Source: Aureicoccus marinus
GTDB taxonomy: Bacteria; Bacteroidota; Bacteroidia; Flavobacteriales; Flavobacteriaceae
Reading direction: 5' to 3'
Length of the DNA: 64,000 bases
Assembly (NCBI RefSeq): GCF_002954325.1
Contig: NZ_MQVX01000001.1
Span: 2,099,383 to 2,163,382, forward strand
Position 1 is the first letter of the stretch. Each line of letters starts with the position of its first letter. Below are positions 32,083 through 34,233 of the stretch, in pieces. A program made the position numbers and the translations under genes. Under the pieces are notes generated by a model. It was not told where the DNA came from. It worked only from the letters and a program-made list of their open reading frames with translations, and made no database searches.

Positions 32083-32604
32083 TTAACCGATCACCTCTCC
32101 TCTTGCAGGATATCTAGTTCTAGTAATATAGTCTACAGCCTTTAGAAAAGACGGTAAATAAGGCCTCCCCCAAGGATTAGAAGTGATAGCTGCGTAGTAC
32201 ACCTTATTTTGCTTATCGATTAAAAATAGACCAGGCTCACTAAATTCTTCCGGTTCTCCCTCCTTCACACCCTTACTGAGGTATAGTCCCCAATCCCTAG
32301 CTTGTTTTCTATCCAAACCATAACCAATTTTCAGCTGATCGATGCCCCATTTTTGGCGAGAAAGTCTAGCGCGCTTTTCCGAGTCCATACTAAGGGCGAC
32401 TACGTCGACACCTCTCTGAGCAAATTCTGGGAGTAAATCTTGTAATTGTTGCAAATATCTCTCGCAGATCGGACAGTGAAGGCCTCGGTAGAAAACCAAG
32501 AGTTGGAAATTTTCAGTTTCCTGTTCTGACAAGGTGAATTTTATCTGATCCAGTGTATTGAATTCCAAAAAAGGAGCCACTTGTAAAGGGGTGGGTCTAT
32601 TCAT
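32083..32604 (-). CDS. peroxiredoxin-like (AhpC/TSA) family protein
   Basis: A 173-residue thioredoxin-fold protein. LLVFYRGLHCPICERYLQQL has the peroxidatic-type Cys in a CPIC arrangement, where classical peroxiredoxins have T-x2-C, and VVALSMDSEKRARLSRQKWG is the following strand/helix. GLFLIDKQNKVYYAAI and SNPWGRPYLPSFLKAVDYI match the 'redoxin domain' group found in oxidative-stress loci. The start overlaps the 3' end of the mdaB-like gene by 8 bp, so both are in one operon under the HxlR regulator. AT-richer than the surrounding core. Confidence 0.85.
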   Translation of the reverse strand: MNRPTPLQVAPFLEFNTLDQIKFTLSEQETENFQLLVFYRGLHCPICERYLQQLQDLLPEFAQRGVDVVALSMDSEKRARLSRQKWGIDQLKIGYGLDRKQARDWGLYLSKGVKEGEPEEFSEPGLFLIDKQNKVYYAAITSNPWGRPYLPSFLKAVDYITRTRYPARGEVIG

Positions 32605-33195
32605 TACTCTTTGTATTAAAATGTAGGTTTAAATGTTGGTCAAAGCGTTTAAAATCTTGATTAATCTGAGGGTTCTTCATTACATCATAAGACATGAAAG
32701 TGGGTAGGGCTTTTAAACCAAACCATTGAAAATTTAAATGCATGGGATTAAGTAGTTCGTCCTCACTAATTCCATTAAAAAAAGTTTCCTCCGGATTTCG
32801 AAAAGCCTCTTCCGGCGCATTAGCCGTTACGGAGATCATATACTTACCCTTTAGTTTTCCTCCAAGGCCATAATTCTTCTTGGGCTCTTCACGACTTCTA
32901 CCATCCCCTGCAGACAGTTCTCCCATCATTCCAGCAGAGAATACCTCATCAATGTACTTCTTAAAAGACCAGCTAACACCCATCCAGTTCAAGGGAGTCT
33001 GAAAAAAGACCAGATCAGCCCACTTGAAATTTTCAATCTCCTGATTCACTTCATAGCTATCTTCCATTGTTCTAACCCGAACAGCACATCCCTGACTTTC
33101 AAAAAAATCGATGGCTTTCTTAGTATAACTGGCATTCAAACGTCCTTCGGAGAAGGATACTTTTGATGCCCGTTGAGTATAAAAACATTCTTCAT
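32597..33195 (-). CDS. MdaB-like NAD(P)H quinone reductase, frameshifted near 33153
   Basis: Flavodoxin-fold FAD enzyme reducing quinones by two electrons. The true start is the ATG at 33195: MKNVFILNGHQKYP, the conserved FMN/FAD-binding N-terminus. That frame stops at once. One more T in the coding run (agaag at 33151-33155) restores PFSEGRLNASYTKKAIDFFE and the rest: FKWADLVFFQTPLNWMGVSW, GRSREEPKKNYGLGG, KGKYMISVTANAPEEAF, and LPTFMSYDVMKNP. Reconstructed length is 199 residues, right for MdaB (~193-199). The first gene of the operon with the peroxiredoxin-like gene, divergent from hxlR. Confidence 0.9.
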
Positions 33196-33211
33196 TGGAA
33201 TATCAATTTAT

Positions 33212-33253
33212 TAGTATCACAAAGAAACTTATATTAGTTTATTTTTGATACTA
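33212..33253. promoter_or_regulatory. 42-bp dyad operator covering both divergent mdaB/hxlR promoters
   Basis: Outer arms TAGTATCA (33212-33219) and TGATACTA (33246-33253) and inner arms AAACT (33225-33229) and AGTTT (33236-33240) share one centre at 33232.5; 18 of 21 base pairs are complementary. TATTTTTG (33240-33247, plus) is a full TAnnTTTG element for hxlR. TTTCTTTG (33220-33227, minus) is a near match for mdaB. The dyad therefore sits on both promoters, fitting repression by two HxlR dimers. Confidence 0.7.
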
Positions 33254-33297
33254 TAAAATACGAGCAAGCGATAATTTGTGGTAACCTCAGAGTAACT

Positions 33298-33768: not shown

Positions 33769-34233
33769 ATGAGAAACACCATAACTATTTTATTTTTTAT
33801 TGTAGCCACGGGTCTAAGTGCCCAGGGTATTTCTAAAAATGCCTTAGGGCTTCGCTTTGGAGACAACAATGGCCTTGGCGGAGAGATCTCTTACCAAAGA
33901 GGCCTTAGCGAAAACAACCGACTGGAATTTGACCTGGGTTGGAGAAATTCAGATAATGTCGATGCTTTTAAGTTGGTTGGACTTTACCAATGGGTTATGC
34001 CCTTGGACGGGAACTTCAATTGGTATATTGGGGCCGGTGGCGGTGTCGGCTCTTTTGACGCAGGCGAAAACGATGGCTCTTTTTTCGTTTTGGCCGGAGA
34101 TATCGGTATCGAATACAACTTCGAAATTCCGCTCCTCATCAGTCTGGATATGCGTCCAGAGCTTGGCTTTAACGACAACTATTCCGACGACCTGGATTTT
34201 GATATCGCCCTCGGGATTCGCTATCAATTCTAG
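33769..34233 (+). CDS. small outer-membrane beta-barrel-like protein
   Basis: A 154-residue exported protein: signal peptide MRNTITILFFIVATGLSAQ, then alternating aromatic/polar strands such as ALGLRFGDNNGLGGEISYQR, NRLEFDLGWRNSDN, VGLYQWVMPLDGNFNWYIGA and FVLAGDIGIEYNFEIP, ending in ALGIRYQF with C-terminal Phe as usual for outer-membrane barrels. About eight strands are expected (OmpW/OmpA-like barrel). Function unknown. It has its own terminator and no co-directional partner. Confidence 0.75.
   Translation: MRNTITILFFIVATGLSAQGISKNALGLRFGDNNGLGGEISYQRGLSENNRLEFDLGWRNSDNVDAFKLVGLYQWVMPLDGNFNWYIGAGGGVGSFDAGENDGSFFVLAGDIGIEYNFEIPLLISLDMRPELGFNDNYSDDLDFDIALGIRYQF

Follow-up and report, generated by a model that had tools for sequence, protein, structure and literature searches.

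A conserved dyad between the divergent hxlR and mdaB genes of Aureicoccus marinus as the probable upstream part of an HxlR operator array

The window, a stretch of 64,000 nucleotides from Aureicoccus marinus, carries an hxlR gene that diverges from a gene for an mdaB-like flavodoxin-fold reductase, with an intergenic region of 102 bp between them (Table 1). A redoxin gene overlaps mdaB and was found beside it at all linked loci except one at a contig end (L044), and the two genes probably form one operon. Downstream of hxlR, positions 33769-34233 encode a 154-residue protein with a signal-like start and no Pfam match. The mdaB frame is broken in the assembly (33139-33195): the conserved ATG at 33195 is off-frame, and the open frame runs from a TTG at 33139. 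At 33 of the 37 loci compared, an ATG at the conserved mdaB start reads through; among the other three loci lacking an ATG frame, two (L052 and L034) have a GTG, as judged by eye, and L038 is seemingly one base short. Given that the genome is in 2 contigs with 87% completeness, the frame break in the window is possibly an assembly error. In L038, from Nonlabens tegetincola, the first mdaB stretch is also broken, and the array described below is one base short.

Table 1. Genes and candidate regulatory features of the hxlR/mdaB locus (positions within the window)
Feature	Position	Strand	Basis
AhpC/TSA-type redoxin, overlaps mdaB	32083-32604	-	PF00578; linked in relatives
mdaB-like flavodoxin-fold reductase	32597-33195	-	PF02525; ORF; relatives
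hxlR, HxlR/DUF24 regulator, 124 residues	33298-33672	+	PF01638, 96.4 bits (cut-off 20.8)
42-bp dyad (sites A + B)	33212-33253	.	18/21 pairs; 0/5000 shuffles; unique in the window
Operator site A (putative)	33211-33231	.	boxes GTATC 33214-33218 and GAAAC 33224-33228, 10 bp apart
Operator site B (putative)	33234-33254	.	boxes GTTTA 33237-33241 and GATAC 33247-33251, 10 bp apart
Operator site C (putative)	33281-33296	.	GTAAC-N6-GTAAC; ends beside the hxlR start codon
Likely hxlR -7 element, TATTTTTG	33240-33247	+	in site B; TAnnTTTG consensus and position from PMC9723704
Possible mdaB -7 element, TTTCTTTG	33220-33227 (read 33227-33220)	-	in site A

The intergenic region contains the sequence TAGTATCACAAAGAAACTTATATTAGTTTATTTTTGATACTA, which an earlier note on this DNA had described as a 42-bp dyad with 18 of 21 complementary positions around a single centre. 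A recount gave the same figure. No other 42-bp dyad with at least 18 of 21 pairs was present in the window. When the intergenic region was shuffled 5000 times with dinucleotides preserved, 18 pairs were never reached (maximum 17, mean 11.3). In an inverted-repeat search, the arms of the dyad widened to 33206-33259 with 81% complementarity. To determine its conservation, 51 hxlR/mdaB intergenic sequences were collected and reduced to 37, the window included, by merging identical ones; one locus (L001), which duplicated that of the window, was dropped. The alignment of the 37 sequences contained two noncoding blocks, namely the dyad and a GTGGTAACC....AGTAAC block ending at the hxlR start codon. 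An exact GTWAC-N6-GTWAC was found in 32 of the 37 sequences, while 100 rounds of shuffling produced none. The dyad is thus real and conserved, the property that the earlier note had set beforehand as the one by which it should be judged. At the level of sequence, the array formed by the two blocks is likewise conserved across the 37 distinct intergenic regions; many of these loci are closely related, and the counts overstate their independence.

Subsequently, a matrix built from the 37 dyads was run on the 110 bp upstream of each of 86 other HxlR genes, from Mucilaginibacter, Pedobacter, Chitinophaga, Dyadobacter, Spirosoma, Flavobacterium and others. The score exceeded all 4300 shuffles at 49 of the 86 genes, and 53 were accepted at a shuffle frequency of ≤0.0002; the 86 loci are not independent, as many come from Mucilaginibacter, Chitinophaga, Pedobacter and Dyadobacter. 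No dyad match was found within 110 bp upstream of the remaining 33 genes, a count in which arrays lying farther upstream, such as those of L010 and L011, which the phylum scan described below brought out, were scored as absent. GTWAC-N6-GTWAC occurred in 57 of the 86 regions, against a shuffled mean of 0.08. The second HxlR gene of the A. marinus genome (L002, G000:C1:149315-149632) showed no array in its upstream 110 bp, nor was one seen in the upstream 140 bp of the HxlR genes of four plasmid-borne relatives, a small sample of three from alphaproteobacteria and one from Persicobacter, a member of the Bacteroidota.

The upstream neighbour was divergent at 52 of 52 readable loci among the 53 with an array; the remaining one, L078, had no readable upstream ORF. 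By Pfam, these 52 partners comprised short-chain dehydrogenases (32), NADH:flavin oxidoreductases of the Old Yellow Enzyme kind (5), F420-type NADP oxidoreductases (5), YceI proteins (3), AHSA1 proteins (2) and a single flavodoxin-fold reductase, so that the array stays constant while the partner changes. In a tree of 123 HxlR proteins, built quickly from few columns and with many open forks, a single branch separated the mdaB-linked proteins from the rest, and the label "no array" required 6 changes compared with a shuffled mean of 29.5.

The internal layout of the array was then analyzed, with L038 (array one base short) and L005 (whose best match was on the opposite strand) left out of the symmetry, box-position and -7 counts. 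The centres of the putative sites A and B lie 23 bp apart. Site A is the only exact GTWTC-N5-GAWAC in the window; site B is one mismatch from this pattern, and its box at 33237 (GTTTA) departs from GWWWC. When one mismatch was allowed, the A/B pattern showed no excess over shuffles in the window, and the site C pattern by itself was not significant, with 4 places in the genome, below the reversed control. Across all HxlR upstream regions, L005 retained, the distances between GWWWC boxes that recurred far more often than in shuffles were 10, 11, 22-23 and 33 bp. Counted from 33211, at which the array begins, the boxes fell at positions 3, 13 and 36, and a further box at 26 was mostly GTTTA and hence outside the strict form. 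The boxes of site C stood at 69/80 or 70/81 in the mdaB clade and mainly at 58/69 in the other arrays. Site C is therefore 11 bp, one helical turn, nearer to A/B in the arrays that lack mdaB, where it also stands at another distance from the start codon. Such a shift favours proteins aligned on one face of the DNA and suggests helical phasing.

In all sets, the highest symmetry was found at the middle axis of the dyad, not at the axes of A or B. This would suit a single operator occupied as one block around a centre near 33232, with C serving another role such as a signal for the start of hxlR translation, and in the mdaB clade C does adjoin the start codon. A strong middle axis is, however, also expected of two similar sites placed next to each other; the register of A and B is therefore one that we infer. 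The inner boxes of the dyad are 13 bp apart, whereas the pairs of A, B and C have the 10-11 bp that is the dominant spacing upstream of HxlR genes; moreover, the other subfamilies have C farther from the start codon and one turn nearer to A/B. We consider the single operator improbable and a row of three sites the better description.

Genome scans were performed with a profile of the 44-bp dyad that was blind to the position of HxlR genes. In the window's own genome this locus alone scored well, and it did so on either strand, as expected of a dyad; a wider regulon in this genome is accordingly not claimed. At least 10 of the 120 genomes of the family had a match at E ≤1e-3, and 8 of these 10 matches preceded an HxlR gene; the two weakest (L148 and L149), beside other genes, are probably due to chance. 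Across the phylum, at least 15 of 395 genomes had a match at E ≤1e-4, and each of the 15 matches was followed on its own strand by an HxlR domain, whose start was 45-115 bp away in 13 cases and 276-287 bp away in 2. Since few candidates were scored per genome, both scans speak to specificity rather than to frequency. The symmetry of the array alone names no protein, and a regulator other than the neighbouring HxlR might bind it. Even with few candidates scored per genome, the 15 of 15 phylum matches upstream of HxlR genes argue against this, as does the way in which the array tracks HxlR subfamilies while partner genes change, and we regard another regulator as very unlikely. The proposal that the dyad is an HxlR operator, put forward in the earlier note, is in keeping with its conservation, its specificity for HxlR and its position between divergent genes; the element was drawn too small, and the third site, C, was missed.

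The flavobacterial -7 box, TAnnTTTG, sits at -12 to -5 according to PMC9723704. Both boxes named in the earlier note, TATTTTTG on the plus strand and TTTCTTTG on the minus strand, were present in the dyad, although TTTCTTTG departs from the consensus at its second letter. The plus-strand place (array columns 29-36) held an exact TAnnTTTG in 33 of the 52 other arrays and the minus-strand place (columns 9-16) in 28 of 52, with both exact together in 23 of 52. When the minus position was slid by 1-2 bases, at most 3 of the 52 kept both boxes, and none did when it was slid further. In the mdaB clade the corresponding counts were 8 of 36 for the plus strand and 0 of 36 for the minus strand, and the TTTCTTTG 8-mer occupied the minus place in 29 of 36. 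The claim that the dyad covers the -7 elements of both genes is thus strongly supported by the fixed places on both strands of the 52 other arrays and less well in the clade of the window itself, where, given the 0 of 36 and 8 of 36 exact boxes, we are unsure of the promoter positions.

Further plus-strand boxes were found in the clade. A TAnnTTTG at the left edge of A, 33 bp upstream of the B position, was present in 23 of the 37 sequences; 2 of 37 had one just before C, and 4 of 37 had none at these places. The left-edge and B-position boxes never occurred together in the clade (0 of 37) and did so in 15 of 53 arrays of the wider set, so that mutual exclusion of the two positions holds for the clade and fails beyond it. 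A promoter shift between the two plus-strand positions is offered as a suggestion only. From a start set by the left-edge box, A and B could be transcribed together with hxlR, and the dyad might then act as an RNA hairpin in the transcript leader. We find this extremely improbable: the tested symmetric positions of the dyad showed no paired changes, the predicted start in the window falls at the end of B and would leave the dyad outside the hxlR transcript, and phasing by 10-11 bp suits DNA. Co-variation of the outer arms (GTATC with GATAC) was tested as a candidate in its own right and was unsupported.

The predicted structure of the HxlR protein of the window showed a confident HxlR winged-helix fold that matched the structures of HypR, HxlR, YodB and QsrR. 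A relative from the same order gave 13 matches to the protein. Its only cysteines are Cys12 and Cys114. The single-chain model places Cys12 directly before helix 13-21, where helix 1 begins, and Cys114 beyond helix 92-105, in the tail. Cys12 was present in 37 of 37 clade proteins and in 83 of 86 others, and Cys114 in 37 of 37 and in 2 of 86 (L005 and L065), respectively. The partner of L005 is the one flavodoxin-fold reductase among the 52, as judged from the start of its sequence. The earlier note had built its switch on one N-terminal cysteine; Cys12 is indeed conserved, but it is accompanied by a second cysteine that is invariant in the clade.

The YodB protein of Bacillus subtilis (PDB 5HS7-5HS9), a sensor of quinones and diamide, belongs to the same family and has the same fold. 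As described in PMC8063818 and PMC6798810, Cys6 of YodB, at the start of a helix, senses quinones and diamide and can be linked to Cys101 or Cys108 in the partner subunit, and YodB controls quinone reductases. The window protein resembles YodB in having one N-terminal cysteine at a helix start and one C-terminal cysteine; Cys114 lies near Cys108 rather than Cys101, with an offset of one residue from Cys108 when the conserved Trp is taken as reference. By analogy, a YodB-like switch with the two cysteines Cys12 and Cys114 is plausible. The DNA sites differ, as the YodB operator TACT-N7-AGTA was not found in the intergenic region even when one mismatch was tolerated, and the window has instead a three-site array between divergent genes. 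QsrR of Staphylococcus aureus also shares family and fold with the window protein. The QsrR operator is GTATA-N5-TATAC, which would have the same box spacing as sites A and B, and we know of no three-site array for QsrR. PMC6798810 describes QsrR as a quinone-sensing repressor of reductases that acts through Cys5.

By sequence, the closest named relatives with solved structures are HypR and HxlR of B. subtilis (PDB 4A5M/4A5N and 7BZD-7BZG). The sensing cysteines of HypR are Cys14 and, as the second, Cys49, compared with Cys12 and Cys114 alone in the window protein. The sensing cysteines of HxlR (Cys11) and of HypR occupy the same place as Cys12. According to PMC7835342, B. subtilis HxlR is a formaldehyde-driven activator that requires Cys11 and Lys13, two residues after the cysteine. 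This activator raises the alternative that the array is conserved and bound by HxlR, while the regulator responds to a ligand or activates transcription and is not a thiol-switched repressor. Sites lying over -7 elements suit repression, however; both cysteines are invariant in the clade, and residue 14 is Leu, so that the Lys of the formaldehyde switch of HxlR proper is absent. We judge this alternative rather unlikely; on the evidence from these homologs, the window protein would work like YodB and QsrR.

Taken as a whole, the sequence comparisons make it highly probable that the dyad forms the upstream portion of an array of operator sites serving the adjacent HxlR, and this array, when bound, would shut off the mdaB-redoxin operon and hxlR until a thiol-triggered release. 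One HxlR dimer would occupy A and another B, 23 bp or about 2.2 helical turns apart, so that both -7 elements would be covered, and a further dimer would sit on C, in phase with A and B, in the hxlR leader beside the start codon. With A, B and C bound together, the mdaB-redoxin operon and hxlR would both be off. Alkylation of Cys12 by quinones, or its oxidation and joining to Cys114 of the partner subunit, would cause the dimer to let go, and both genes would then be expressed.

The type of control is probably ordinary, namely autogenous regulation by a thiol-sensing repressor; a fixed three-site layout across a phylum is, so far as we know, new. A literature search, covering titles and the openings of abstracts and with subscription journals mostly outside it, returned no account of the DNA sites of HxlR-type regulators in Bacteroidota or of this array. 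It seems reasonably likely that the Bacteroidota hold an old, portable cassette consisting of an HxlR repressor and a phased array of three sites, the first two of which contain both -7 elements, with a swapped partner, with C shifting by a whole turn and with the second cysteine fixed in the quinone-reductase branch. On the same footing, the partners exchanged within the cassette would tend to be a quinone reductase with its redoxin, an SDR, an Old Yellow Enzyme, an F420-type reductase and others. HxlR-type regulators are common, and a recognisable, fixed array offers a direct means of linking each regulator to its target gene. The array could also help to identify in advance the detoxification enzymes that respond to thiol-reactive compounds, and it offers a way to test how two promoters of the unusual Bacteroidota type can be served simultaneously by a single repressor array.

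Two departures from the layout were also observed. In an HxlR subgroup from Mucilaginibacter, Pedobacter and Chitinophaga (L066-L069 and L071), a denser row of GTWAC boxes was found, with the dyad reduced to a piece resembling site A. In Dyadobacter psychrophilus (L080), unrelated sequence stands in place of the left part of the array, and the right box of B is kept together with C.
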